Shown here in pieces: positions 31,977 through 48,783 of a stretch of 64,000 nt of DNA. The translations under genes and the position numbers were made by a program. Each line of letters starts with the position of its first letter. The stretch's first letter is position 1. The notes under the pieces are model-generated. The model was not told the origin of the DNA, made no database searches, and worked only from the letters and a program-made list of their open reading frames with translations. Source of the DNA: Bacteroidota bacterium (lineage in GTDB: Bacteria; Bacteroidota; Bacteroidia; B-17B0; Aurantibacillaceae). The stretch spans positions 1 through 64,000 of the forward strand of contig JAFDYB010000050.1 of the NCBI GenBank assembly GCA_018267655.1, written 5' to 3'.

Positions 31977-32960
31977 ATGGACGTTTCTAGCAGTGAAAAT
32001 ATTCAAAAAATTATTACAGGTGTTTTAAATTCGGATATTTCATTTTTGAGTAAAGCGATAACGCTTGCTGAGTCATTTAAACCGGAGCATCAACTTGTTT
32101 CCCAAAAAATAATTGATAATATTATTTCTCATACAGGCAAATCATTTAGAATTGGTATTACAGGAGTGCCGGGTGTTGGAAAAAGTTCGTTTATTGAAAA
32201 ATTTGGTTTAGAGCTAGCAAATAAAGGTTTTAAAATTGCTGTGTTGGCAGTTGACCCAAGTAGTACTAAAAGCAAAGGCAGTATTTTGGGTGATAAAACC
32301 CGAATGGACGAGCTATCAAAGCACCCTAATGTTTTCATCCGCCCTTCGCCAAGTGCTGGCGAGTTAGGTGGATTAACTAAATCAACTTATCAGAGCATTT
32401 TGCTTTGCGAAGCTGCCGGTTATAATAGAATAATAATTGAAACTGTTGGCGTTGGGCAAAGTGAAACATTAGTGCATCAAGTAACTGATTTCTTTTTATT
32501 ACTTATGCTCGCCGGTGCAGGAGACGAGCTGCAAGGGATTAAACGCGGCATTATGGAAATGGCTGATGTAATTGCAATTACAAAAGCAGATGGATCGAAT
32601 ATTGAAAAATCGAGAGCTGCTAAAATTGAATATGCAAGGGCTTTACATTTATTTCCACCTAATGAAAGCGGTTGGATACCTAAAAGTGTTATTTGCTCAA
32701 GCTTATTAAACAGTGGTATTTCAGATATTGTTGATTTAAGTGAAACATTTTTACATTACACTACCCAAAACGGCTTTTTTAATACAAAAAGAAATAGTCA
32801 AGTTTTAGAACTTTTTAACCAACTTTTAAATCAAAAAATAATACAAAACTTTTTTAGCTCAGAAACTAATCGGCAGAAAATAAATTCAGCTATTTCAAAG
32901 ATAAAAAACAACGATAAAAATTTTTTAAGCCTTATTAATGAAGTTTTAGGACTGCATTAA
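31977..32960 (+). CDS. meaB: Methylmalonyl-CoA mutase-associated GTPase MeaB
   Basis: 327 residues. G-domain motifs: P-loop GITGVPGVGKSSFIEKFG (about 60), Walker B AVDPSSTKSKGSILGDKTRM, the G2/G3 elements ETVGVGQSE, and ITKADG (about 200). MeaB (also called ArgK) protects adenosylcobalamin-dependent methylmalonyl-CoA mutase and helps load its cofactor. The mutase genes are not here, but the protein implies a propionyl/methylmalonyl-CoA route in this organism. The gene converges on ftsZ with a 4-base overlap of the two stops. Confidence 0.93.
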   Translation: MDVSSSENIQKIITGVLNSDISFLSKAITLAESFKPEHQLVSQKIIDNIISHTGKSFRIGITGVPGVGKSSFIEKFGLELANKGFKIAVLAVDPSSTKSKGSILGDKTRMDELSKHPNVFIRPSPSAGELGGLTKSTYQSILLCEAAGYNRIIIETVGVGQSETLVHQVTDFFLLLMLAGAGDELQGIKRGIMEMADVIAITKADGSNIEKSRAAKIEYARALHLFPPNESGWIPKSVICSSLLNSGISDIVDLSETFLHYTTQNGFFNTKRNSQVLELFNQLLNQKIIQNFFSSETNRQKINSAISKIKNNDKNFLSLINEVLGLH

Positions 32961-34576
32961 TCAACATTGTCATGGAGGGTACGATTTGGCCTGAGCTCAA
33001 TTTTTTTCTCATCATTTTCGCCTAATGCAAACTTTGAAACGCTTGATTCTTTGCTTGGTAATGAATTATCGAGCGAAATATTTTTTCTTTCAAAAGCAGT
33101 TTGTTTTTCAAGAGAAGCCAAACCTTCGGGGCTTTTCATTTTTAAAGTTAGTTCCTTCAGTTTTCTAATTCTTTCTTGGGCTAGCTTAATTTGCTCTTCG
33201 CGATTATTTATATCTGTTACCTTTGGTGTATTATGAAAGACTACACTATTTTCTGTTGATTTATCTACTGTTTCATCGTTGCTAATATCATTAAATGTAA
33301 ACTCAGTAACTGTTGTGTCAAGTTCAATTTTATTTACCGGAGCTTCTTCTTCTAATTGATGGACTGTTATTTTAATTTCATCTTTTATTGAAATATCATC
33401 AACGTTATCAATAGAAACAATGTTTACATCGTTTTTTTCTACTTCTGGTAATTTTGTTTCTTTTGTGAATGAAAAAAGTTCGTTTACCGGCGGAGTATCT
33501 GTAAAAATTGTTTGCTTATTTTCAACAATTGGTTCAATTTTTTCTTCTTCTAACTTAATTACTTTGCGGTCAATAAAAGATGGCATTTCAAATCCTGTTT
33601 GAATTTTTGAATTAAATCCGGTAGCAACTATTGTTACACTTACATTATCTCCTAACGAAGGATCGGTGCCGTAGCCCATTATTAACTCAGCGGTACCACC
33701 TGATGATTCTTGAATATAATCAGTAATTTCGCCATATTCATCCATATCAAGTTCGCCGCTACCGCTCATTATATTTAATAATATATGGCGTGCTCCGGAA
33801 ATATCGTTATCGTTTAATAATGGAGAATTTAAGGCTTGTTCAACGGCTTTAATAGCTCGCTTTTCGCCACCTGCTACAGCCGATCCCATAATGGATACAC
33901 CGCTATCTTTCATTACGGTTCTAACATCATTAAAATCAACATTAATGTGCATGTGTTGACCAATAATTTCAGCAATACTTTTAGCAGCATTAGTTAAAAC
34001 GTTATCGGCATGAGCAAAAGCTTCGCTCATTTTTAAATTACCATAAATTTCTCTTAATCTATCGTTACCGATTACAATTATTGTGTCAACATATTTTTTT
34101 AGTTCTTCTAACCCTTGCTCAGCTTGCATTTTACGTTTTTTACCCTCAAAACTAAAAGGCATTGTTACAATACCAACCGTTAAAATATCTAAGCTTTTTG
34201 CAATACTTGCAATAACTGGTGCTGCACCTGTTCCGGTGCCTCCGCCTAAACCGGCAGTAACAAACACCATTTGGGTTCCATCAGATAAAAATAATTTTAT
34301 ATCCTCAATTGATTCTAAGGCAGCTTCTTTTCCAATTTCGGGAATTGAACCTGCGCCTAAGCCTTTTGTTGATTTTGAACCCAATTGTATTTTGTTATTA
34401 ACGGGGCTTTTTTCTAAAGCTTGTTTATCTGTATTACACACAGCAAAACTTACACCGGCAATACCCATACGCGCCATGTGATTAACTGCATTGCTACCAC
34501 CGCCGCCAACGCCTATTACTTTTATTATTGAGCTATCTTTTTGATTTTGCTCTTCGGGTAATTCAAATTGAATCAT
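32957..34576 (-). CDS. ftsZ: Cell division GTPase FtsZ
   Basis: 539 residues. The tubulin-like G domain starts with VIGVGGGGSNAVNHM (about 20) and has the tubulin signature AGLGGGTGTGAAPVIAS (about 107), the T7 loop VDFNDVRTVM (about 208) and a C-terminal activation domain up to about 320. It then carries a long acidic, low-complexity linker (about 340-450) and a basic coiled end (QIKLAQERIRKLKEL), making it about 150 residues longer than E. coli FtsZ, as usual in Bacteroidota. It forms the division ring at mid-cell. Last gene of the dcw operon, 25 bases after ftsA; its stop overlaps that of convergent meaB. Confidence 0.97.
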   Translation of the reverse strand: MIQFELPEEQNQKDSSIIKVIGVGGGGSNAVNHMARMGIAGVSFAVCNTDKQALEKSPVNNKIQLGSKSTKGLGAGSIPEIGKEAALESIEDIKLFLSDGTQMVFVTAGLGGGTGTGAAPVIASIAKSLDILTVGIVTMPFSFEGKKRKMQAEQGLEELKKYVDTIIVIGNDRLREIYGNLKMSEAFAHADNVLTNAAKSIAEIIGQHMHINVDFNDVRTVMKDSGVSIMGSAVAGGEKRAIKAVEQALNSPLLNDNDISGARHILLNIMSGSGELDMDEYGEITDYIQESSGGTAELIMGYGTDPSLGDNVSVTIVATGFNSKIQTGFEMPSFIDRKVIKLEEEKIEPIVENKQTIFTDTPPVNELFSFTKETKLPEVEKNDVNIVSIDNVDDISIKDEIKITVHQLEEEAPVNKIELDTTVTEFTFNDISNDETVDKSTENSVVFHNTPKVTDINNREEQIKLAQERIRKLKELTLKMKSPEGLASLEKQTAFERKNISLDNSLPSKESSVSKFALGENDEKKIELRPNRTLHDNVD

Positions 34577-34601
34577 ATTATTTGGTTTTAAGGGTTTTAA
34601 A

Positions 34602-35978
34602 TTATTCTATATTTTCATCTGACATCCAGTCGCGTGTTTTGTCGAGTATTACATTTAAAAATCTTCCTATCCTGTTTTTAGAATGTCCTACTACTTTGTC
34701 TTCTTCAGGTGTATTTGTTTTTTCTTTTCTCTTTGTATTATTAATATTTTCAGGTCTTTCAGAGTTAGAAGCACGTTTTTCTTCACGCTCGTATTTTTCA
34801 ATACCTTTCATAACTAAGCCAATGCCTGTTGCATATAATGGATTTTTTAAATCATCATTGTCACCAGCAAGATGTTCATTAGGCGTTCCTATACGGCAGT
34901 CCATACCTGTGTTAAGCATCACAAGCTGAGTTAAATGTTTAAGCATAGCGCCTCCTCCTGTAATTACAATTCCTGCAGCCATTTTCTTTTCATAGCCACT
35001 GCATTTAATTTCGTATAGTACAAAATCTAAAATTTCTTCCATGCGTGCTTGAACTATTTGTGCCAAAAACCGAATTGAAATTTCTTTATGAGGTCTTCCT
35101 CTTAAACCGGGAATAGAAATAATGTCACTTTCTTGATTTTCTTGAGCTAAGGCAGAGCCAAAACGGATTTTTAATTGCTCTGCTTGTGTTTTTATGATAC
35201 TGCATCCCTCTTTAATATCTTCAGTAATTATATTTCCTCCAAATGGAATTACAGCTGTGTGGCGAATAATACCATCATAAAAAACAGCAACATCAGTTGT
35301 GCCGCCGCCAATGTCTACTAAAACTACGCCGGCTTCTTTTTCTTCGTTGGTTAATACCGAATCGGCGCTTGCTAGTGGTTCTAATTGTAAATCGGCAGTT
35401 GTAAGTCCTGCACGGCTAACGCATTTAAAAATGTTTTTTACAGCACTTACCTGTCCTGTAATTATATGAAAATTTCCTTCGAGTTTAACACCTGCGTGTC
35501 CAATTGGGTTTTTTATGCCACCTTCGTTATTAATAATATATTCTTGAGGTATAACGTGAATAATTTCTTCGCCCGGATTCATAGCTAAACGGTGCATGCT
35601 ATCAATCAATTCATCTACATCTTTTTGAGAAACCTCATCATCTTGGCTATGTCGCATAATCATTCCGCGGTTTTGCATACTTTTAATGTGTTGACCGGCA
35701 ATACCAACAATAACTTCATCAATATCAACATTAGCTTTATCTTGGGCAATTGAAATGGCGGTTTTTATTGAAGCAACTGTTTGCTCAATATTTACTACTA
35801 CGCCACGGTTTACGCCTAAAGACTCTGCTTTACCCACGCCTAAAATTTCGATTTTACCGTATTCGTTTTTTCTGCCAACAATAGCTGCAATTTTGGTGGT
35901 ACCAATATCAAGTCCTACAATAAGTTCAGAACCATTTGAAGGTATTTCGTTACTTGTTTCTTTTTCATTCATAAGCAT
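34602..35978 (-). CDS. ftsA: Cell division protein FtsA
   Basis: 458 residues from the ATG at 35978, chosen because it falls 13 bases after the ftsQ stop; starts at 36011 (inside ftsQ) or 35972 are possible. Actin-like ATPase with phosphate loops IVGLDIGTTKIAAIVG (about 20) and VVLVDIGGGTTDVAVF (about 203), a 1C domain following HIKSMQNRG, and AAGIVITGGGAML (about 330). It tethers FtsZ to the membrane through an amphipathic helix, which here should be in the last residues (IGRFLNVILDKTRDWM). Positioned between ftsQ and ftsZ as expected. Confidence 0.95.
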   Translation of the reverse strand: MLMNEKETSNEIPSNGSELIVGLDIGTTKIAAIVGRKNEYGKIEILGVGKAESLGVNRGVVVNIEQTVASIKTAISIAQDKANVDIDEVIVGIAGQHIKSMQNRGMIMRHSQDDEVSQKDVDELIDSMHRLAMNPGEEIIHVIPQEYIINNEGGIKNPIGHAGVKLEGNFHIITGQVSAVKNIFKCVSRAGLTTADLQLEPLASADSVLTNEEKEAGVVLVDIGGGTTDVAVFYDGIIRHTAVIPFGGNIITEDIKEGCSIIKTQAEQLKIRFGSALAQENQESDIISIPGLRGRPHKEISIRFLAQIVQARMEEILDFVLYEIKCSGYEKKMAAGIVITGGGAMLKHLTQLVMLNTGMDCRIGTPNEHLAGDNDDLKNPLYATGIGLVMKGIEKYEREEKRASNSERPENINNTKRKEKTNTPEEDKVVGHSKNRIGRFLNVILDKTRDWMSDENIE

Positions 35979-35991
35979 TTTTTTATTTTGT

Positions 35992-36810
35992 TTAAACTGC
36001 TTTAGTAGCAACCACTATGTTTTTATATTTTAAATTTATTTTTGAGTACTTGTTCCAAGCATTTGTTTTATTTAATCCTTCTTTGTAAAAGAGTTTTAGC
36101 TTTTGAAATTTTTCGTTTAGGTTATTACAGTCTCCTAATACAATAGTTTGCCTACCAATAGCCGGAAACAGCTCAATTTCATTTTGGCTGTTAATATTAA
36201 TTTGTTGCACTAAATCAAGCAAAGTTGAGTCGGCATTTATAAATTTTCCCAACTCAAATAAGTCGTCAATGATAGTTATTGTTTTTAGTTTTTGATTTTT
36301 ATTTAAATAATCAAAACCCCATTCGTTACGGCGGCTATATGGTTCGTTAATATTTCCTGATGCTACAATTACTCTCGCTGTATAATTTTCATTTAGAGGC
36401 ATTGGCTTACCTTCGGTATCTATATAATAACTTTCTCCATCTGTATTTATTAATCTTAAAATTGGTGTGCGTTGAATAATGTTTATTTTAATTTCGCCAT
36501 TAATGTCTGCTGCCACATCAGCCTTTTGAATTGCCGGGTGTGAGTTAAGTGTTTTTTCGAGCAGAAGCATATTTAAGTTTTTGAGCTTGTTGTTTAATAG
36601 AGAATCTTTACGTGTGTTAAAAAAATCAATAATGTCAGTTTCGGTAATAAATGGATTAACTGAATTGTTTTTAATTTGGATACTAATATTTTTAACTATT
36701 GTTTCGCCTTCAGTTTTATTTACAAATGCTAATGAAAAGCTAAGACCGCACAAACACATTGTCCATGCGGCTATTTTCAAAATTCTTTTATAATTTATTT
36801 TTTTAAGCAT
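35992..36810 (-). CDS. ftsQ: Cell division protein FtsQ
   Basis: 272 residues. One N-terminal membrane helix (about 10-28, ILKIAAWTMCLCGLSFSLAF) and a periplasmic part with a divergent POTRA domain (residues about 38-105, ending EIKINIIQRTPILRLINTDG, the most conserved FtsQ segment) followed by a beta domain. FtsQ links early and late divisome proteins with FtsL and FtsB. No FtsB is seen next to it, so another gene must supply that role. Overlaps the murC end by 8 bases. Confidence 0.88.
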   Translation of the reverse strand: MLKKINYKRILKIAAWTMCLCGLSFSLAFVNKTEGETIVKNISIQIKNNSVNPFITETDIIDFFNTRKDSLLNNKLKNLNMLLLEKTLNSHPAIQKADVAADINGEIKINIIQRTPILRLINTDGESYYIDTEGKPMPLNENYTARVIVASGNINEPYSRRNEWGFDYLNKNQKLKTITIIDDLFELGKFINADSTLLDLVQQININSQNEIELFPAIGRQTIVLGDCNNLNEKFQKLKLFYKEGLNKTNAWNKYSKINLKYKNIVVATKAV

Positions 36811-38200
36811 TTGTAGTTATTGCTTTTTTTATTGGTTCAACTAATTGGTCAATATCTCCTGCTCCCATAGTTAAAAGCACTTGTTTTTTATGTTGTTTTA
36901 AGTAATTTATTAAATCGCTTTTTGAGAAGAGTTTTTTTTCGTTTGCAACAATTTTATTAAGTAGCCACGCCGAAGTAATATTTTCGATTGGCAATTCTCT
37001 AGCAGGATATATCTCTAACAAGATACATTCATCGAGCATTGACAAGTTTTTAGCAAAATCTTCAGAAAAATCACGAGTACGAGTGTATAAATGCGGTTGA
37101 AAAATCCCTGTAATTTTTTTATTAGGGTATAATTTTCTAACAGAATTAATAAAAGCGTTTAACTCTTCAGGGTGGTGTGCATAATCATCAATATAAACAG
37201 TATCATGTGTATTTACATGAAACTCAAATCGGCGTTTAACACCTTTAAAAGAACGTAAGCCCTCTCGAATTTGCTCAAAGTTAAGCCCAACTATTTGAGC
37301 TGCTGCTACTGCTGCAATCGAGTTCTCAACATTGTGAAAACCAGGAATACCAAGTGTTATACCCGATATTTCACCTTGAGGAGAAACTATATTGTACGAA
37401 AATTGCGCATTATTTATTGTAATATTTTTTGCACAATATTCAGTATCTAAATTTAATGAGTAGATAAGGCGATGCGCCGTCAATAAAATTTCGTTATCAA
37501 CATTTTTTTTAACAATCAAAATGCCATCTGATTTTAATTTTTCACTAAATAATTTATATCCTTCTTTAACGTTTTTATCGTTACCATAAATATCGAGGTG
37601 ATCCGCATCTGCACTTGTTATAATTGCTATTTTAGGTTCAAGCGTTAAAAACGACCTGTCGTATTCATCTGCTTCAACAACCATCCAAGCGCTTTCATTG
37701 CCCACGTTTCCTAATAACAAATTTGTGTTGTAATTAGAAGAAATACCCCCCATAAAGGAAAAGCAATTAATGCCGGCATTTTTTAAAAGATGCGAAATCA
37801 TTGTGGTAGTAGTGGTTTTGCCATGAGTACCTGCAATTGCAATGGTGTTAAAACTTTTGCTTATTTCGCCCAACACTTGCGATCGTTTTAATATCGTAAA
37901 ATCATTATTTACTAAGTATTGGTATTCGGAATGGGTAGTTGGAATTGCCGGAGTATAAATAACTAAAACATCTTGCTTATTATAGTTTAAAAGTTCATTT
38001 TTCAATCTAGCGACATCTTCAATAAAAAAACAGTTAATGTGTTCTTCTATTAGCCGCTCTGTTAAATCAGTTGATGTTTTGTCGTATCCTGCTACTTTTT
38101 TTTTATAGTGATTAAAAAAGCGAGCCAAAGCGCTCATGCCTATGCCACCTATTCCCAAAAAATAGTAAAATTTATATGTTAAAATGTTACGACTATTCAT
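36803..38200 (-). CDS. murC: UDP-N-acetylmuramate--L-alanine ligase
   Basis: 465 residues, cytoplasmic Mur ligase that adds the first amino acid of the wall peptide. The N-terminal Rossmann motif is FLGIGGIGMSALARFF (about 14), the P-loop AGTHGKTTTTTMISHL (about 117), the central VVEADEYDRSFL (about 172), and the C-terminal YIDDYAHHPEEL (about 335) plus FQPHLYTRTRD. ATG at 38200 overlaps the murG stop by 8 bases, meaning tight coupling inside the dcw operon. Confidence 0.96.
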   Translation of the reverse strand: MNSRNILTYKFYYFLGIGGIGMSALARFFNHYKKKVAGYDKTSTDLTERLIEEHINCFFIEDVARLKNELLNYNKQDVLVIYTPAIPTTHSEYQYLVNNDFTILKRSQVLGEISKSFNTIAIAGTHGKTTTTTMISHLLKNAGINCFSFMGGISSNYNTNLLLGNVGNESAWMVVEADEYDRSFLTLEPKIAIITSADADHLDIYGNDKNVKEGYKLFSEKLKSDGILIVKKNVDNEILLTAHRLIYSLNLDTEYCAKNITINNAQFSYNIVSPQGEISGITLGIPGFHNVENSIAAVAAAQIVGLNFEQIREGLRSFKGVKRRFEFHVNTHDTVYIDDYAHHPEELNAFINSVRKLYPNKKITGIFQPHLYTRTRDFSEDFAKNLSMLDECILLEIYPARELPIENITSAWLLNKIVANEKKLFSKSDLINYLKQHKKQVLLTMGAGDIDQLVEPIKKAITTNA

Positions 38201-39305
38201 TTTTATAGTTTGCCAATTTTAAAACTTGCTTTGCAATAATTTCTGCCGAATTAAGAAAAGCTAATTGTTTTATGTTGTTTTTTAGTTTGCTTTGTAAAGG
38301 TGCATTTTCTGAAAGTGCAATAGCTTGTTCTATTAATTTATTAGCTGATTCATTATCTTTAACCAATATTGCAGCTTCTTTAAGAACGAGTGCCATTGCG
38401 TTTTTTGTTTGATGATCTTCGGCAACGTTTGGAGATGGTACTAAAATGCAAGGCTTTTCTGTAATACATAATTCTGAAACAGAGCTTGCTCCGGCTCTGC
38501 TAATTACTATATCGGCACAAGCGTATGCTAAGTCCATTCTAGATACAAAATCAAATACTTTAATTAAAGGACTATTAATTTTTTCAACAGCTTGTGTTGC
38601 TTTTAAAAAATAACTTTTTCCGGTTTGCCAAATTATTTGAATATTGTTTTTCACTAATAAATCAAGCCCATTTTTTATGGCTTCATTAATTGAAAGTGCG
38701 CCAAGGCTTCCGCCAATAATTAATATTGTTTTATTTTCTTTATTGAGTTTAAAATAATCAAGGGCATTTTCTTTTTTTAATTCTACGTGGTGTATATCTT
38801 GTCTTACAGGGTTTCCCGTTAAAATAATTTTGTGTGCTGGAAAAAATTTTTCCATCCCCTCATAAGCAACACAAATTGTAGTTGCTTTTTTTGATAAAAT
38901 TTTATTTGTGATTCCGGCGTATGAATTTTGCTCCTGTATGAGTGCAGGAATGCCTTTATTAATAGCAGCTCTTATTAACGGCCCGCTTGCATAACCACCT
39001 GTTCCAACTACAACAGTAGGTTTAAACTCATTAATTATTTGCTTTGTTTTTAAAAGACTTTTAATTATTAAAAAAGGTAATTTAAAATTTGATATAGTAA
39101 ATTTTCTTTGTAAGCCTGCTATTGGTATTCCAATTATTTTATAACCTGCAGCCGGTATTTTTTCCATTTCCATTTTTCCAAGAGCACCAACAAACAATAT
39201 TTCGATATCAGGAACTATTTGTTTAAGTTGATTGGCAATTGCTATTGCAGGGAATATGTGTCCACCGGTACCTCCACCACTTAATATTACCTTTAATTTT
39301 TTCAT
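38193..39305 (-). CDS. murG: UDP-GlcNAc--lipid I GlcNAc-transferase MurG
   Basis: 370 residues, GT28 glycosyltransferase at the inner membrane that turns lipid I into lipid II. N-terminal ISGGGTGGHIFPAIAIANQL (about 8) and C-terminal nucleotide site with ISRAGASSVSELCITEKPCI (about 265) and PSPNVAEDHQTKNA. Placed between ftsW and murC, 6 bases from ftsW. Confidence 0.96.
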   Translation of the reverse strand: MKKLKVILSGGGTGGHIFPAIAIANQLKQIVPDIEILFVGALGKMEMEKIPAAGYKIIGIPIAGLQRKFTISNFKLPFLIIKSLLKTKQIINEFKPTVVVGTGGYASGPLIRAAINKGIPALIQEQNSYAGITNKILSKKATTICVAYEGMEKFFPAHKIILTGNPVRQDIHHVELKKENALDYFKLNKENKTILIIGGSLGALSINEAIKNGLDLLVKNNIQIIWQTGKSYFLKATQAVEKINSPLIKVFDFVSRMDLAYACADIVISRAGASSVSELCITEKPCILVPSPNVAEDHQTKNAMALVLKEAAILVKDNESANKLIEQAIALSENAPLQSKLKNNIKQLAFLNSAEIIAKQVLKLANYKNE

Positions 39306-39311
39306 TTTAAG

Positions 39312-40466
39312 TTATGCCATTTCAGTTTTTTCATCACTTTTATCTTCAATACCTTTGCTTACACTCAACACAATTCCAAGTGTAATCATTGTAAATATTA
39401 TTGATGTGCCGCCCATACTCAACATGGGTAGCGGCTGGCCGGTTACCGGAAATAAATTTACGGCAACAGCCATATTAACTAAGGCTTGGAACACTAAACT
39501 AAATGTAAGTCCTACGGCAATTAAGCTTCCAAAAGGTTTTTGACTATCTCTAAAAATCCTAATACTTCTATAAAGTAAAATCATGTATAAGAATAGTAGC
39601 ATAAACCCACTAACTAGCCCATACTCTTCAATAATAATTGCATAAATAAAGTCAGATGATGCCTGTGGCAAAAAAGCTCTAGCGGTGCTGTTTCCGGGGC
39701 CTTTACCAATAATTCCACCAGTTGCAATTGCAATTTTTGCTTGTTCTGATTGGTAATTGCTTTTTGTGTCTCCTGAAAAAAAGTTCTCAATTCTGGCATG
39801 CCATGTAGGACCTCTTCCACCTGGTATTGCAGATGGGGCAAACCACACTATACAAAAAAATAATGCTGCAAATACAATACATATTCCTATTATTTTTAAT
39901 ATTATTTTGAAATTTACACCTCCAAAAAACATTAGCACTAAACAATTAAAAAACAAAATTGCAGCAGTAGAAAAGTTTGCAGGAAGAATTAGTACACAAA
40001 CAATTCCTATAGGTAATAGTAAATATTTAAAAACATTTTTTAAATCGCTGAGCTTATCGGCTTTTATGGTTAAAATTCGTGCAACGTAAATAATAAGCAT
40101 TAGCTTGGCTAAATCAGAAGATTGAAATGTTAATTTTAACCCGGGTATTTCAATCCATCGAGAGGCCTCGCCGGCACTAACACCCTTTGCAAGGGTAAAT
40201 AAAAGCAAAGGTATGCATAAATAAAAACCAATTAGCGATACCTTACTAAACATTGTATATCTGAATTTATGCACAAAGTACGCTGCAATAAAGCCACATA
40301 AAATAAAAACAGAATGTTTTATTAGATAATATTGCGAGTTGCCTTGTTGATATTTATGCGCTAAAGTAACAACAGCACTATAAACAACTAATATAGAAAG
40401 TAGCGATAGCAGTAACATAATTACCCACATAACTTTATCGCCCTTTAAGTATTTAAAGATATTCAT
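39312..40466 (-). CDS. ftsW: Septal peptidoglycan glycosyltransferase FtsW (SEDS family)
   Basis: 384 residues with about ten membrane helices, SEDS polymerase for septal wall synthesis together with the FtsI encoded upstream. Landmarks: WIEIPGLKLTFQSSDLAKL near 100 (the E-x-x-K region), the big loop with PGGRGPTWHARIENF and AIATGGIIGKGPGNS, DFIYAIIIEEYG (about 270, catalytic Asp region), and LFPVTGQPLPMLSMGGTSII (about 335). The last part is typical of FtsW over RodA given its place in the dcw cluster. Confidence 0.93.
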   Translation of the reverse strand: MNIFKYLKGDKVMWVIMLLLSLLSILVVYSAVVTLAHKYQQGNSQYYLIKHSVFILCGFIAAYFVHKFRYTMFSKVSLIGFYLCIPLLLFTLAKGVSAGEASRWIEIPGLKLTFQSSDLAKLMLIIYVARILTIKADKLSDLKNVFKYLLLPIGIVCVLILPANFSTAAILFFNCLVLMFFGGVNFKIILKIIGICIVFAALFFCIVWFAPSAIPGGRGPTWHARIENFFSGDTKSNYQSEQAKIAIATGGIIGKGPGNSTARAFLPQASSDFIYAIIIEEYGLVSGFMLLFLYMILLYRSIRIFRDSQKPFGSLIAVGLTFSLVFQALVNMAVAVNLFPVTGQPLPMLSMGGTSIIFTMITLGIVLSVSKGIEDKSDEKTEMA

Positions 40467-40486
40467 AAGCCTATTGTGTATTTTAT

Positions 40487-41839
40487 TTAAATTGAACGCA
40501 CTGCAGCTTTAAATTGCAAGCCGCGCTCTTCGTAATTTTTAAATAAATCAAAACTTGCACATGCCGGAGAAAGTAAAACAGCATCTCCTTTTTTTGCTAG
40601 TTTATATGAAACAGCCACAGCATCAACAGCATTATCGGTTTCAATAATTGTTTCAACGGCTTTTGAAAACGAGGATATGATTTTTTTATTGTCTTTACCA
40701 AGACAAACAATCGCTTTTACTTTTTCTTTCACAATGTCAAACAACTCGTTGTAATCGTTCCCTTTATCTTGTCCGCCGCAAATCCAAACAATTGGTTTTT
40801 TCATACTTTCGAGTGCATACCAAGTGGAGTTAACATTGGTAGCTTTGCTATCATTTATAAATTCAACTCCATTGATTGAAGCTACAAACTCAAGTCGGTG
40901 TTCAATATTTTGAAAGTCGGATAAACTTTCGCGAATTGTTTCTTTGCGTATATCCACTACGCGAGCGGCTAATGATGCTGCCATACTGTTGTAAACATTG
41001 TGTTTACCTTGCAATGCTAATTGTTCAATTGTCATAATTAAGGGTTGGTTAATGGTTGGTTTATAATTAAGGGTTATTTGGTTTTGGTTTAAAAAAGCGC
41101 CATCTCCTTCAATATTTTTCTTAATTGAAAATGGAAGCGTTGTAGCAAGTATTTTATTATGCTGCATAAAATTGTTTATCACATCATCATCAGCACAATA
41201 AATTAAATAATCGTTTTTGGTTTGGTTTTGTGTTATTTTAAATTTTGATTTTACGTAGTTTTCAAATTTATAATCATAACGATCTAGGTGATCGGGAGTA
41301 ATATTTAGCAAAATGGCTATATCTGCTTTAAAATTAAACATGCCATCTAATTGAAAGCTACTCAACTCAATTACATAATAATCAAAACTTTCAGTAGCTA
41401 CTTGGTATGCAAAACTTTTTCCAACGTTACCTGCTAAACCAACATTATAGCCTGCTTTGCTTAAAATATGGTATGTAAGTAAAGTAGTAGTGGTTTTACC
41501 ATTTGAACCGGTAATGCATATTTTTTTTGCATTTGTATATTGTGCAGCAAATTCAATTTCAGAGATTATTGAAATGTTTTTTTCTTTTAATTTGAGTATA
41601 ATGTCTGATTTATCAGGTATTCCAGGGCTTTTAATGATTAAGCCGGATAATTCTAATTTATCATAAGTATGCACCCCCTCTTCAAATAAGATATTATTTT
41701 GAATTAAAACAGATTTGTATTTATCTGCAATTACACCTTTGTCGCTCACAAAAACATCAAAGCCCTTTTGCTTGGCAAGTATTGCACTTCCAACGCCGCT
41801 TTCGCCGGCACCTAATATGGAGATTAGTTTATTCATCAC
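40487..41839 (-). CDS. murD: UDP-N-acetylmuramoylalanine--D-glutamate ligase
   Basis: 450 residues. N-terminal [17 protein letters not shown] (about 10), P-loop [20 protein letters not shown] (about 112), central [35 protein letters not shown] (about 183), [17 protein letters not shown] (about 320), and the late [20 protein letters not shown], all diagnostic of MurD. Its start overlaps the mraY stop by 4 bases. Confidence 0.96.
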
Positions 41840-43101
41840 CTTATTTTAAGTGTTACAAATGTTAGTACCGCAAGCATAATTCCAATGATAAAAAATCGCA
41901 TAACTATTTTTGATTCATGAAAGCCTGATTTTTGATAATGATGGTGCAGTGGCGCCATTTTAAATAAACGATGCGTTTGTGCATACTCTAGTCCTCGTTT
42001 CTTTTTTTGGTATTTAAAATAATATACTTGAAGAATAACTGATACGTTTTCAACCAAGAAAATACCACATAAAATTGGGATGAGTAATTCTTTTCTAATT
42101 GCAATTGCAAATACTGCAATGATACCACCTATAGCTAAACTGCCTGTATCGCCCATAAATACTTGTGCTGGAAAAGTGTTGTACCATAAAAACCCAACGC
42201 ATGCGCCTATAAATGCAGAAATAAAAACTACCAGCTCTCCGGAGTTAGGTATGTACATAATGTTTAAATAATCGGCAAAAATTGTATTTCCGGAAACGTA
42301 GGCTAAAATCCCAAGAACTACGCCTATAATGGCGCTAGATCCGGCAGCTAAGCCATCTATGCCATCGGTTATGTTTGCGCCATTGCTTACAGCCGTTACA
42401 ATTAAAATTACTAATGGAATAAAAATGATCCAACCCCATTTTTGGCAATCATTACACACCCACGAAACAATTTTGCCATAATCCAACTCATTATTTTTAA
42501 AAAATGGAATGGTTGTTTTTAAATTTTTTACCGGTTGATTTGAGTAAATTGGAATTTTTAATTTTCGTTGAGCCGTATCGTTTTGAATTGCCCATAGTTG
42601 CTTATTGTTGTGAGTTAAGCGTTCTTTAATTACAATATCTGGGTGAAAGTAAAACACGCAGCCAACTATAATTCCTATGCCAACTTGCCCAATGATTTTA
42701 AATTTCCCTTGTAGGCCTTCTTTGTTCTTTTTAAATACTTTTATATAATCATCTAAAAACCCTATTCCACCTAACCAAATAGTTGAAACTAGCATTAAAA
42801 TAATATATATGTTAAATATTTTTGCAAACAATAATGTTGGAATTAAAATGGCTGCAATAATTATTATTCCGCCCATGGTTGGTGTGCCTGCTTTTTTTGC
42901 TTGACCATCTAAGCCTAACTCTCTAATTGTTTCGCCAATTTGTTTTTTACGAATGAAGTCGATTATTTTTTTACCAAATACAAGTGATATTAAAAGAGAC
43001 GCAATTAATGCAAATGCCGCACGAAATGAAATATAATTAAATAATCCTGCTCCAGGGAAACTGTAGGCTTTATGCAAATATGTAAATAAATAGTAGAGCA
43101 T
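41836..43101 (-). CDS. mraY: Phospho-N-acetylmuramoyl-pentapeptide transferase
   Basis: 421 residues, ten-helix membrane enzyme that makes lipid I on undecaprenyl phosphate. Motifs [12 protein letters not shown] (about 70), [21 protein letters not shown] (catalytic Asp pair, about 115), [17 protein letters not shown] (about 255), [19 protein letters not shown] (about 310) and [20 protein letters not shown] (about 390). It is about 60 residues longer than E. coli MraY because of an insert of roughly 165-235, which is common in Bacteroidota. Shares one base with murE. Confidence 0.96.
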
Positions 43102-44564
43102 TATATTTCAAAATTTTTAAATGTTTCTTTTAAAATTTGTAAGTCGTCAAAATTGTGTTTTACACCTTTTATTTCTTGATATTTTTCGTGCCCCTTACCG
43201 GCAATTAAAATAATATCGCCCGGTTTGCTTAACTGGCAAGCTGTTTTAATTGCTTCTTTGCGATCGCTAATACGCAATGTTTTTTTTATATCAGAAATTG
43301 GAATTCCCTTTTGCATTTGATTTAAAATTTCTTCGGGATCTTCACTTCTAGGATTATCAGAGGTTAAAATAACTTTTTGGCTGTATTGACAAGCAATTGA
43401 AGCCATTACAGGACGTTTGGTTGTATCTCTGTCTCCACCGCAACCAACAAGTGTAATAACTTGTTCGTTACCATTTCTAATATCCTTTATTGTTTCTAAT
43501 ACATTTTTTAGAGCATCGGGGGTGTGTGCATAATCAACAATTCCTATTACGCCATGCTCTGATTTTATATATTGAAACCGCCCATCAACTGAATTAAGAT
43601 TGCTTAAAGCGGTTAAAGCAGAGGTTTTTTCAATTTTTAGTAAAACAGCGGTAGCATATACTGCAAGTGCATTATAGGCGTTAAAAGTTCCAATTAATTT
43701 AATGCAAGTTTCGTAACCATCAATGTTAAGTATTAATCCGCTTAAATGACTTTCAATAATTTTACATTTAAAATTTGCAATGTTTTGTAAAGAGTAAGTG
43801 TATTTTTGCGATTTTGAATTTTGTAACATTACCATTCCATTTCTGTCATCGCGGTTTACAAGAGAAAAAGCAGTGTTTGGCAAAGTGTCAAAAAAATGTT
43901 TTTTGGCTTTAATGTATTCATCAAAAGTTTTATGATAATCTAAATGATCGTGCGTAATGTTTGTAAAAACAGCACCCGTAAAATTTATTCCTGCAATTCG
44001 ATTTTGAACTACAGCGTGCGAACTTACTTCCATAAATGCATACTCACACTCTTGCTCAACCATTGCCTTAAGCAATTCATTAAGTGCAATAGCATCTGGA
44101 GTTGTGTGTGTTGATGGAATTATATTATTATTTATTTTGTTTTGAACCGTTGAAATTAAACCAACGTTGTGCCCAAGCGATTTAAATAAATTAAACAGTA
44201 ATGTTACCGTAGTTGTTTTACCATTTGTACCCGTAACGCCAACTAATTTTAATTTTTCAGAAGGATTATCGTAAAAGTTACAAGCAATTATACCCAGCGC
44301 ATAGGAAGCATCGGTAACTTTAACATAGGTTACATGATTTTTTATTTCGTTTGGAATATGTTCGCAAACAATAGCGTTTGCCCCGAGTTCAATGGCTTTA
44401 TCTATAAACGCGTGCCCGTTGTTGACTGTACCGCTGGTTGCAATAAATAACGAATCTTTTTTTACTTTTCGAGAATCAAAAGTGATAGACGAAATAGCTA
44501 TATGCGTTAAGCCAATCACCTCTTCTAAACGTACTTTATATAATATGTCGCTTAATAATTTCAA
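43101..44564 (-). CDS. murE: UDP-MurNAc-tripeptide synthetase (meso-DAP-adding)
   Basis: 487 residues. P-loop [20 protein letters not shown] (about 107), [17 protein letters not shown] (about 178), and [21 protein letters not shown] (about 200), whose Lys is carbamylated in the family. The substrate motif [12 protein letters not shown] (about 408) has Asn-Pro-Arg, the signature for meso-diaminopimelate rather than lysine. The next expected gene, murF, is missing and mraY follows instead. Overlaps ftsI by 4 bases. Confidence 0.96.
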
Positions 44565-46687
44565 CTTAGTGTAAGAATAATTTTATTGCCTTTATAATAT
44601 TTTTGTCCTGCTTCAATACTTTGTTTTTTCACAGATCCAAAGCCTTCAATTTTTACAATGAGCCCGTTATTTTCAAGTAAAAACAAGGCTTCTTTTGCCG
44701 ATATGCCTAATAGATTTGGCATTATCCCTTTTCTTAATTGAGATTCAAAATTTTTTGCAACAAAACTTTCGGTAATTGTGTCGTTTGTGTTTCTTGTAAC
44801 AAACTCATTGCTAAACGTATTGGTTGATTTAATTCCAAAAGTGTTTGCTAAGCTTTTCAATTCATTTGCTCTGCCTGTTATTAATGTTGGAACATTAACC
44901 AGTAGTCCCTTATTATTATTCAAAGGCTTAATAAAATCGGTATTACCCGAATAAACTTTTTCTGCAATTTCTTTAAACACCGGTCCTGCAACTGCACCAC
45001 CATAATAAATACCATTACTTGGCGAATTAATTACAACAATGCATGTATATTGCGGGTTATCAGCCGGAAAATAACCAATAAATGATGCTTGATAAGTAGT
45101 GCCATTTTTTTTATAGTCGCCATCTTTAGCTATTTGTGCAGTACCTGTTTTACCGGCTACTTTAAAGGCCTTAATGTTTAAGCTTTTTGCAGTACCCGTA
45201 GCAACAACACTCTCCATTAATAATTTTGCTTTACTAATAGTGCTTTGTTTTGCAATTGCTTTATCAATTATTTCGGGTTTAAAATCATAAATTGATACGC
45301 CATTGCGCTTAATTTGATTTACAAAATGAGGTTTAACCATACAGCCATTATTTGCAACAGCATTATAAAGCGTAAGTGTTTGCATTGGCGTTATTAAACT
45401 TTCGTAGCCGATGCTAATCCAGGGCAATGATGTTCCATACCAATCACGATCTTTAACTTGTTTAACCCTAGGAATTCCCTCGCCCGGTATAGATAATCCT
45501 AACTTTTGATTAAGATGAAATGAATTAAGTTTTGAAATAAATGCTTTTGGATTTTTTGAGAAATATTTAGTAACTATTTTACTAACACCAACATTTGATG
45601 AGGTTTCAAAACACTCTAATACACTACAAATTGATTTTGCAGGAGCATGCGAATCTTTCATCTTACGATCGTAATACATACACTCTCCATTTCCAACATT
45701 TACCTTTTCATCAAGCGAAATATTATACTCTTCAATAGTTGCCAACATTGAAGCTAGTTTAAACGTTGAACCGGGTTCAGTTGGATAACCAATGGCATAG
45801 TTTAAGCTTTCAGAATATGAGGTGCTGTCATCGCTATTATTTTTGGTTAAATTTGTTATGGCTTTAATAGCACCTGTTTTAACTTCCATTAAAACGGCGC
45901 AACCGTGCGAAGCATTATTTTTAATTAAAGCTTTAAGTAAGGCCGACTGAGCCACATCTTGCACATTAATATCAATGGTGGTGTATAAATCACTTCCGTC
46001 TTTTGGCTCTACCTCATTCTCATCATTAATTGGTCTCCAAACATCGCCCGCAATTTTTTGCATTAATCGTTTACCACTAATGCCTGTTAAAACACTGTCG
46101 TAGGCGCCCTCTAAACCAACCGGTTTAATACCCGGCCTCGATAAGCCTATAGTACGTGCGGCGAGTGATTGAAAAGGTCTTTCTCGTTTATTGGTTTGTA
46201 ATGTAACCAAAGCTCCGCCGCCTTTTTTACTCCGCTTAAATAATGGAAAGTTTTTTAATGCCTGTAAATCTTTATAAGGAACATTGCGCTTTAATAAAAC
46301 GTATCTATCTTTTTCTTTACGCGCTTTATTTAATATACTTAAATATTCACGCTTTGATTTATCGCCAAAAAGAGTACTTAATTGTAGCGCTAGTGAATCG
46401 CGTTTTGCAGAATAAATTTTATCATCAATAGAGGGGGTATTAATATCCATACCTATTTCATAATAGGGTAAAGATGTTGCTAATAAAGCACCATTTGCAT
46501 CAAAAATATTACCCCTAACAGCTTCTATTTCGAATACTTTGGTTGAAAATGCTTCTGCCTTTTCTTTCCAATCATTACCTTGTACAAATTGAATAACACA
46601 AATGCGGTAGAGTATCGCTAATGCAAAAAAGCACATTAGTATGTAAACTAAATAGGTTCTTATTAATATGTTGCGCTTTTCGTTCAA
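44561..46687 (-). CDS. ftsI: Division-specific penicillin-binding protein FtsI (PBP3) with PASTA domain
   Basis: 708 residues. Membrane anchor (about 9-27), PBP dimerisation domain (about 50-230, with RGNIFDANGALLATSLPYYE), and a transpeptidase domain with the nucleophile motif EPGSTFKLASML (Ser about 308), SSNVGVSKI (about 367) and AGKTGTAQIA (about 510). A single C-terminal PASTA domain (MPNLLGISAKEALFLLENNG to the end) follows; E. coli FtsI lacks it. Works with FtsW to cross-link septal wall. Overlaps ftsL by 4 bases. Confidence 0.95.
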   Translation of the reverse strand: MNEKRNILIRTYLVYILMCFFALAILYRICVIQFVQGNDWKEKAEAFSTKVFEIEAVRGNIFDANGALLATSLPYYEIGMDINTPSIDDKIYSAKRDSLALQLSTLFGDKSKREYLSILNKARKEKDRYVLLKRNVPYKDLQALKNFPLFKRSKKGGGALVTLQTNKRERPFQSLAARTIGLSRPGIKPVGLEGAYDSVLTGISGKRLMQKIAGDVWRPINDENEVEPKDGSDLYTTIDINVQDVAQSALLKALIKNNASHGCAVLMEVKTGAIKAITNLTKNNSDDSTSYSESLNYAIGYPTEPGSTFKLASMLATIEEYNISLDEKVNVGNGECMYYDRKMKDSHAPAKSICSVLECFETSSNVGVSKIVTKYFSKNPKAFISKLNSFHLNQKLGLSIPGEGIPRVKQVKDRDWYGTSLPWISIGYESLITPMQTLTLYNAVANNGCMVKPHFVNQIKRNGVSIYDFKPEIIDKAIAKQSTISKAKLLMESVVATGTAKSLNIKAFKVAGKTGTAQIAKDGDYKKNGTTYQASFIGYFPADNPQYTCIVVINSPSNGIYYGGAVAGPVFKEIAEKVYSGNTDFIKPLNNNKGLLVNVPTLITGRANELKSLANTFGIKSTNTFSNEFVTRNTNDTITESFVAKNFESQLRKGIMPNLLGISAKEALFLLENNGLIVKIEGFGSVKKQSIEAGQKYYKGNKIILTLS

Positions 46688-47142
46688 TTTTTTTTACTAA
46701 TCAAATTACTATCTGTTGTTATTTTAAATGGAGGTGATACCGGTTCTTTTAATCCAATTTTTTCTACGGCTTTAGCAACCTCGCTTTGTTTACTGGCAAA
46801 CATTAAATCGCTTGTTGATGAAATGTATGCTGACCTTAACTCCTTTAATTCATTATTTAATTTATTTTCTTCTCTAATTTTATTGTCGGCATAGTACCCA
46901 TTAGCGATATATAAAATCAAAACAAATACTAAGAACAACACAAAGGGAAAATGCTTTAAATACTTTTCGTTTGATAGAAAAGTTCCACTAAACATTTTAC
47001 CAAGTGCTTTTGAAACATATCCCTTAGGTTTGTTTTTAGGCATTATAGTTTTTGTCTTTTCTTTAGCAATAGCTTCGGCCTTTTCAACGGGTTGCTCTAA
47101 TGCATTTGTATTTACGGGTATGTCTCTAAATTTATTTGCCAA
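46684..47142 (-). CDS. FtsL-like cell division protein
   Basis: 152 residues with little sequence signature, assigned by place and shape. A basic N-terminal cytoplasmic stretch of about 60 residues, one membrane helix (about 65-85, FPFVLFLVFVLILYIANG) and a short periplasmic coiled coil (about 90-135, ENKLNNELKELRSAYIS) match Bacteroidota FtsL-like proteins found between rsmH and ftsI. It should join FtsQ and FtsB in the divisome. A one-base gap separates it from rsmH. Confidence 0.8.
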   Translation of the reverse strand: MANKFRDIPVNTNALEQPVEKAEAIAKEKTKTIMPKNKPKGYVSKALGKMFSGTFLSNEKYLKHFPFVLFLVFVLILYIANGYYADNKIREENKLNNELKELRSAYISSTSDLMFASKQSEVAKAVEKIGLKEPVSPPFKITTDSNLISKKN

Positions 47143-47143
47143 A

Positions 47144-48058
47144 TTATATTTTTTTTGCAGCTCTTAGTTTTGCACTTCTAGCTCTGCTGTTTTCATTAAT
47201 TTCATTATCGTCAGGTACAATTGGTTTTGTAGTTAGCAATTCAAAATATTTTTTAGTTGTGCCAAATACAATATCTCTCTCTATATTTCCTTCAATGTTT
47301 CCTGCTTTCATAAAGTTTTTTACTAATCTGTCTTCTAAGCTGTGATAAGAAATTACAACTAAATTAGAAGTGTTATTTAGCAATTCATAGCTTTGCTGTA
47401 ATGCCTCTTTAAGTGCCTCTAACTCTTGATTTACCTCAATTCTTAGCGCTTGAAAAACTTGAGCATGAAATTTTTTCGCTTCAAATTTTGGTGTTACTTT
47501 TTCAATAGCATCAATTAATTGTTGTGTTGTATTTATTGTTTTTTCGACTCTTGCACTTAATATTAATGATGTTAGTTTTTTTGCATTTTCAATTTCACCA
47601 AAATTTTTGAATAGTTTTGTAAGACTAGCTTCATCATATTCATTAATAATGTTTTTTGCCGATAGTGGTGCGTTTTTATTCATCCTCATATCTAAGTCTG
47701 AATTAAATCGGATTGAAAAACCGCGCTCAGCTTCATCAAATTGATGTGATGAAACGCCTAAATCAGCTAATATGCCATCAACTTTTAAAACGCCTTGTAG
47801 CCTTAAGTAACTTTTAAGAAATCTAAAATTGTGAGGAATTAACGTAAAGCGGTCATCGTTTATAGTATTTGCAACAGCATCACTATCTTGATCAAATGCA
47901 AATAACTTACCATCTTTTCCAAGGTGTTTTAATATTTCTTTTGAGTGGCCTCCACCACCAAAAGTTAAGTCAACATAAACACCATTTGGCTTAATATTAA
48001 GCAACTTTATGCAAGCATGTAAAAGAACGGGTTTGTGATACGCCCAATCGTTACTCAT
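47144..48058 (-). CDS. rsmH: 16S rRNA (cytosine-1402-N4)-methyltransferase RsmH
   Basis: 304 residues. Methyltransferase motif I is VYVDLTFGGGGHSKEIL (about 30), with DGILADLGVSSHQFDEAERG (about 98) and VVISYHSLEDRLVKNFM (about 235), typical of MraW/RsmH. The inserted helical domain lies between about 110 and 215. It uses SAM (made by the metK product) to methylate C1402 in the decoding centre. Start overlaps mraZ by 8 bases. Confidence 0.96.
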   Translation of the reverse strand: MSNDWAYHKPVLLHACIKLLNIKPNGVYVDLTFGGGGHSKEILKHLGKDGKLFAFDQDSDAVANTINDDRFTLIPHNFRFLKSYLRLQGVLKVDGILADLGVSSHQFDEAERGFSIRFNSDLDMRMNKNAPLSAKNIINEYDEASLTKLFKNFGEIENAKKLTSLILSARVEKTINTTQQLIDAIEKVTPKFEAKKFHAQVFQALRIEVNQELEALKEALQQSYELLNNTSNLVVISYHSLEDRLVKNFMKAGNIEGNIERDIVFGTTKKYFELLTTKPIVPDDNEINENSRARSAKLRAAKKI

Positions 48059-48521
48059 TTACCTCATCGTTAAAATTTAGTCCTCCAAGCACATCTTCGG
48101 CCAATTTTTCTATATTAATGTCTTGGTTTAAAAAATCTTCGTATTGTTTTTTATCCCACAGTTCAATTATATTATTGCTGCCAATTACTTTTAAATCATT
48201 TCCTAAACAGGCGTACTCAGATAAAGATTTTGGAATTAATAGTCGCCCCGTACTATCAGATAAAACATTAGTTGCTCCGCCTGTAAATTTTCTTACAAAC
48301 ACATCGTTAGCTTTAATTAACCTATTAAGTTTAGATAAAGTTTTATTTAATTTTTCCCACTCATTAACCGGATAAAGCACTAAGCACTTTTGGTGTAGAT
48401 TTCGATTAATAACAAAGCCTTTTTCAAAAGCAGCCGCAAGCTGATTTCTTAAATCAACAGGGAACATAAAGCGACCTTTTGGGTCAATTCGGCAATCATA
48501 TTCTCCAATTAAACTTGTCAT
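48051..48521 (-). CDS. mraZ: Transcriptional regulator MraZ
   Basis: 156 residues with two AbrB-like half domains: LIGEYDCRIDPKGRFMFPVDLR at the N terminus (conserved D-x-K-G-R-x-x-x-P) and GGATNVLSDSTGRLLIPKSL near residue 85 (D-x-x-G-R-x-x-x-P). MraZ forms rings that bind repeated boxes upstream of its own gene and controls the dcw operon. Four 10-bp repeats of that kind start 39 bases upstream. First gene of the dcw operon. Confidence 0.94.
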   Translation of the reverse strand: MTSLIGEYDCRIDPKGRFMFPVDLRNQLAAAFEKGFVINRNLHQKCLVLYPVNEWEKLNKTLSKLNRLIKANDVFVRKFTGGATNVLSDSTGRLLIPKSLSEYACLGNDLKVIGSNNIIELWDKKQYEDFLNQDINIEKLAEDVLGGLNFNDEVNE

Positions 48522-48542: not shown

Positions 48543-48550
48543 CAAAAATA
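48543..48550 (-). promoter_or_regulatory. Putative dcw operon -7 element
   Basis: On the minus strand TATTTTTG matches TAnnTTTG, 22 bases before the mraZ ATG. The place of a -33 element falls inside the MraZ boxes at 48560-48599, which would let MraZ block RNA polymerase. Confidence 0.45.
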
Positions 48551-48559
48551 TTTATTTAA

Positions 48560-48599
48560 TTGCCACTTTTTACCACTTTATTACATTTTTTACCACATT
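48560..48599 (-). promoter_or_regulatory. MraZ box array (four 10-bp direct repeats)
   Basis: Read on the minus strand the four decamers are AATGTGGTAA, AAAATGTAAT, AAAGTGGTAA and AAAGTGGCAA, with strict 10-base spacing. The last two fit the AAAGTG(T/G)N3 box reported for mollicute MraZ, and 10-base spacing also matches the E. coli TGGGN-N5 boxes. The array sits 39-78 bases before the mraZ start. MraZ binding is inference from pattern and position. Confidence 0.7.
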
Positions 48600-48783
48600 G
48601 TTGATAAATTGTAGTTATTAACAAATGTTGATTAAAGATTTTTTTGTATTAAATAATAAAGTAATTTTTGATTAATCCTTTAATTAGTAAGAAAAGCAAC
48701 TTAGTTTAAAATTATTTTTAATTAAAAATCATAGAAAATTTAGCAAGTAGGATATTAACATTAATAGCTTAATTTTGTACCCT

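Follow-up and report, generated by a model that had tools for sequence, protein, structure and literature searches.

The 64-kb window, by which we mean the whole stretch of DNA analysed here, carries a complete dcw cluster without a large gap. It is headed by mraZ and continues as an uninterrupted minus-strand series from 48521 to 32957 in the order mraZ-rsmH-ftsL-ftsI-murE-mraY-murD-ftsW-murG-murC-ftsQ-ftsA-ftsZ, with the genes placed as follows:

48051..48521, minus strand: mraZ, coding for a 156-aa protein with PF02381 in two stretches (E 4e-23), the likely cognate DNA-binding protein of the repeats considered below
47144..48058, minus strand: rsmH (mraW), PF01795 (E 5.5e-97)
46684..47142, minus strand: ftsL, PF19579 FtsL_2 (E 1.5e-32)
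44561..46687, minus strand: ftsI, a transpeptidase with PASTA (PF00905, PF03717, PF03793)
32957..44564, minus strand: murE, mraY, murD, ftsW, murG, murC, ftsQ, ftsA and ftsZ, contiguous ORFs whose identities were read from their translations rather than assigned by family search

In the MraZ protein both PF02381 stretches score above the cut-off and correspond to two MraZ/SpoVT-AbrB-type halves, each with a DxxxR motif (D13PKGR17 and D89STGR93) that is common to E. coli MraZ and invariant in A1 and A3. Among solved structures, the nearest chains belong to MraZ rings such as 1n0e and 9qlr (E 5e-14). Upstream of this gene lies a tandem array together with two further predicted elements:

48599..48607, minus strand: a 9-mer, TTATCAACA (TTWTYAACA), adjoining box 1
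48590..48599, minus strand: predicted MraZ box 1, AATGTGGTAA; GTGG occupies this slot in 16/17 loci of the window's genus, the remaining locus being shifted by one unit
48580..48589, minus strand: predicted MraZ box 2, AAAATGTAAT, degenerate with the core ATGT; in the genus this slot reads ATGG, GTGT, ATGT or GGGG
48570..48579, minus strand: predicted MraZ box 3, AAAGTGGTAA; GTGG in 17/17 genus loci
48560..48569, minus strand: predicted MraZ box 4, AAAGTGGCAA; GTGG in 17/17 genus loci
48543..48550, minus strand: predicted -7 element, TATTTTTG (consensus TAnnTTTG), 9 bases after box 4

Read on the minus strand, boxes 1–4 form gapless 10-bp units from 48599 to 48560. An earlier note on this DNA had claimed an array of four MraZ-box decamers before the dcw operon. 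Its placement of the array 39–78 bases 5′ of mraZ agrees with the coordinates, because the ATG of mraZ is at 48521 on the minus strand. All four units do stand in the 10-bp register, but the second lacks GTGG, and across the genus loci compared its slot is nearly always degenerate. The site is thus a run of GTGG direct repeats with a 10-bp period in the mraZ/dcw promoter region, in which three units keep GTGG and the other is degenerate; an MraZ operator has at least three repeats. A GTGG pair at exactly 10 bp occurs just once in the window when both strands are scanned, and when the 120 bases upstream were dinucleotide-shuffled, three GTGG words fell in one 10-bp register in 0/20,000 trials.

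To place this array in a phylogenetic context, upstream regions were drawn from the window's genus, from other families of its class, from other classes of the phylum and from 80 named rsmH loci, including those of Flavobacterium, Chryseobacterium, Pedobacter, Sphingobacterium, Mucilaginibacter, Polaribacter and Bacteroides; the named genomes were scanned via rsmH, the MraZ alignment being too divergent for that scan. The earlier note had offered the absence of the decamers upstream of mraZ in other members of the phylum as grounds for rejecting its claim. GTGG units paired at 10 bp occur at 101/107 Bacteroidia mraZ loci, the window's genus contributing a single count, and at 63/65 mraZ loci from other Bacteroidota classes. 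These loci are related and not independent, and counts collapsed by family give the same picture, with at least one array locus in 20/20 Bacteroidia families and in 25/25 other families sampled with mraZ. Thus, the array spans nearly the whole phylum Bacteroidota, and the note's ground for rejection falls away. When 188 loci are pooled, the distances between GTGG words peak sharply at 10 bp (215 pairs), 20 bp (108) and 30 bp (34), most other distances having 0–7 counts, with minor peaks at 21, 25, 31 and 35 bp. The opposite-strand word CCAC gives no 10-, 20- or 30-bp peak at these 188 loci, and the mraZ coding sequences of the same loci contain no GTGG pairs in the 10-bp register. In one Prevotellaceae MAG (L147) the usual GTGG array is missing and AAAGTGCCAT occurs twice in a 10-bp tandem, perhaps reflecting an altered box specificity.

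The presence of the array also tracks that of mraZ itself: 164/172 loci with mraZ have it, as against 0/15 rsmH loci without a neighboring mraZ, in which no paired box was found within 1 kb upstream of rsmH. Ten of these 15 loci come from genomes without an MraZ match, eight of them from one family (f40; L217 and L219–L225); the other five are Alistipes loci (L149, L174, L184, L187 and L188) with neither mraZ before rsmH nor the array, for which only the rsmH neighborhood was covered, so that mraZ could be elsewhere in those genomes. Within the window's genus, the tandem pair AGTGGNAANAAGTGGNA occurs as one copy in 17/22 genomes, always at mraZ; it was found nowhere else in the 22 genomes, and a reversed control pattern gave 0 matches. 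Hence the tandem-site regulon of MraZ is likely to be a single operon, with single boxes elsewhere being possible. In the window's own genome, the best candidate for a second box pair (C47:14925, two mismatches) falls inside a long coding sequence and was rejected as a site; two further weak matches have three mismatches each. Taken with the conservation across the phylum and the lack of a paired box where mraZ is missing, the presence of one near-perfect pair outside coding sequence in the genome upholds the array claimed by the earlier note.

The unit can be compared directly with known MraZ operators. Its consensus in Bacteroidia is AAAGTGGTAAA, the base following GTGG being G in 30% and T in 61% of units, and in the other classes it is AAAGTGGGGAAA, with G following in 83%; the GTGG core of both consensuses is fixed by the way in which units were selected. 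The E. coli K-12 operator reads GTGGGAAATT GTGGGGCAAA GTGGGAATAA, that is, GTGG(G) at a spacing of exactly 10 bp, so the GTGG core and the 10-bp spacing are common to both known box types, the latter as the earlier note had stated. Set against the unit consensus, this reading makes the E. coli TGGG box and the mollicute AAAGTG[T/G] box a single decamer seen in two registers. The note's further contention that the array resembles the mollicute more than the enterobacterial box is accordingly correct as regards the flanking AAA and the base following GTGG, which is not G, both features leaning towards the mollicute form, but overstated as a contrast, the GTGG core being present in E. coli too. 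The mollicute box has been given as (AAAGTG[T/G]N3)k (PMC8475190, quoting Fisunov 2016). Units 3 and 4 of the window match AAAGTGG exactly and units 1 and 2 with one mismatch each, at the same 10-bp period; unlike in mollicutes, where T or G follows GTG, G is nearly fixed in arrays of the window's kind, and the promoter type differs. In Burkholderia cenocepacia, MraZ binds four 7-bp GTG repeats with 3-bp spacers at PmraBc in controlling the dcw operon, and the GTG motif has been called conserved in E. coli, B. subtilis and mycoplasmas (PMC7761207). Given this conserved motif and the core common to the E. coli and mollicute boxes, the site in the window very probably belongs to an already known kind, the MraZ operator. 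No paper on an MraZ site in Bacteroidota was found in the literature searched.

What is new is the geometry of the predicted promoters. Although E. coli Pmra shares with the window the GTGG core and direct repeats exactly 10 bp apart before the mraZ of a dcw cluster, its GTGGG units lie downstream of TTGACA/-10 and overlap the start site, and the operator of PmraBc likewise lies downstream of the -10 and over the start site (PMC7761207); the boxes of the window are instead upstream of TAnnTTTG. The box layout relative to the -10 is a feature of arrangement and does not define the operator. Across Bacteroidia, TAnnTTT[GA] begins 13–17 bp past the start of the last GTGG at 76/102 loci (shuffle mean 2.2, maximum 10), or at 89/102 when the range is widened to 27, and is found after the last GTGG at 0/63 loci of other classes. 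Conversely, TTGAC stands 36–40 bases before the first GTGG at 38/63 other-class loci (shuffle mean 0.3) and at 0/102 Bacteroidia loci. Counted by family, the upstream layout is seen in 15/20 Bacteroidia and 0/25 other families, and the E. coli-like layout in 16/25 other and 0/20 Bacteroidia families. Thus, the boxes of Bacteroidia are predicted to lie upstream of TAnnTTT(G/A) and over the -33 region, and those of the other classes around +1, on the downstream side of a TTGAC promoter, as in E. coli. In family f19 (seven loci, among them L039, L049, L051, L055, L062 and L068), a -7-like TATTTTG(T) (TATTTTGT) is embedded between the boxes of the array.

The -7 consensus has been placed at -12 to -5 (PMC9723704, PMC7366714). 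The -7 motif of the window then predicts a start at ~48538 with a leader of ~17 nt, and GTGG cores at ~-58, -48 (degenerate), -38 and -28, so that the array would cover the -33 position. The earlier note had described such cover, and it recurs in 89/89 Bacteroidia promoters with a -7 element. The -33 word TTTG is found in 0/89 of these promoters; F. johnsoniae promoters have no detectable -33 motif (PMC7366714).

From these comparisons we infer that the repeats very probably serve as the operator of MraZ, which is itself encoded by the leading gene of this operon. An MraZ oligomer in the form of a ring would touch the successive GTGG cores, which the 10-bp spacing sets on one face of the helix, and would thereby control its own gene and the entire dcw operon from one promoter. 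Since the boxes stand immediately 5′ of the -7 element and overlie the -33 position, repression is the most likely action: MraZ bound over the -33 region would keep the sigma factor off, resulting in negative autoregulation of the operon. We consider this sign of regulation probable; E. coli MraZ acts as a repressor, and a mutant of M. genitalium also points to repression (PMC8475190).

The alternative that survives best is that MraZ bound upstream of the -7 element activates, by recruiting or steadying RNA polymerase where the promoter has no -33 element. In most Bacteroidia the whole array is 5′ of the -7 element and its distance from it hardly varies, which would suit such a role, as would the lack of TTTG at -33, a feature that fits an activator-dependent promoter, and Fisunov's work of 2016 is said to have found MraZ acting as an activator in Mycoplasma gallisepticum. 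Against this, the -33 region itself lies under the array, an arrangement that usually blocks sigma, the precedents of E. coli and M. genitalium are for repression, and the -33 motif is missing from many Bacteroidia promoters anyway (PMC7366714). Activation is the less likely sign of regulation.

Explanations that dispense with MraZ fare far worse. The array might be a curved-DNA promoter element in which 10-bp-phased A-tracts bend the DNA, with GTGG as a mere separator, and units such as GTGGTAAAAA do constitute A-tracts in 10-bp phase. However, the other-class unit GTGGGGAAA has fewer A and yet keeps GTGG and the spacing, no paired box is left where mraZ is missing, and the E. coli GTGGG operator, known to be that of MraZ, has few A-tracts, making this proposal very improbable. 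We give equally little credence to the idea that another regulator reads the array and that mraZ is just its neighbor: the link between the two is drawn from sequence evidence, but array and mraZ vanish together, and the same core and spacing form the MraZ site in bacteria as distant as E. coli and Burkholderia (PMC7761207). A chance origin of the repeats in A/T-rich DNA is refuted by the shuffles and by conservation at more than 150 loci.

In Bacteroidia the predicted operator is often accompanied by TTWTYAACA. This 9-mer lies 10–23 bp before the first GTGG at 61/102 Bacteroidia loci (shuffle mean 0.12, maximum 2), usually in the context AAAA(C/G)TTATYAACAAAGTGG, and is found before the array at 0/63 loci of other classes. 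An inverted TGT(T/G)GAAAA stands 12–40 bases before box 1 at a further 20 Bacteroidia loci, counted separately and possibly overlapping with the 61. TTWTYAACA could be a variant of the DnaA box TTATNCACA, from which it departs by one change, and one Kaistella locus (L142) has TTATACACA in its place; neither an origin nor a box cluster was found in a rough GC skew of the one-contig relative G001 and in 400 kb around one candidate switch. Pairs of TTATTAACA and TTATCAACA also occur in the gap separating genes for an HU-type protein and a methionyl-tRNA formyltransferase (L211, G000:C83:96475, with a very similar pair at G001:C1:494608) and ahead of a gene whose product reads like a PUR-domain protein (L209, G000:C67:8555). 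Given these pairs at other genes, TTWTYAACA may mark a wider regulon. About 15–20 bases upstream of the 9-mer, in the window (48630–48607) and in the genus loci, there is an imperfect palindrome, e.g., TTATTAACAATGTTAATAA or TGAACATTGTTCA, where another dimeric regulator may bind. In Flavobacterium (e.g., L137, L144 and L152) an extra GTGG flanks the 9-mer (gtggTTAAACTTATTAACAAAgtgg) at 21 bp upstream of box 1, and this accounts for the minor 21- and 31-bp peaks in the pair distances.

It is conceivable, though we advance this tentatively, that the operator sequence was kept and its side of the core promoter switched when Bacteroidia took up the -7/-33 promoter type. Given the changed place of the operator, MraZ may act by a different mechanism in Bacteroidia, blocking or replacing the -33 contact and perhaps having an activating effect, in concert with a second factor at TTWTYAACA. 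MraZ ranks among the regulators of bacterial division genes that are most widely distributed, and Bacteroidota are a phylum with a promoter type of their own. With its consensus and position defined, the predicted MraZ site can be tested directly in Flavobacterium and Bacteroides, and the occurrence of both layouts in a single phylum allows a natural comparison of how one predicted operator acts from either side of the promoter.
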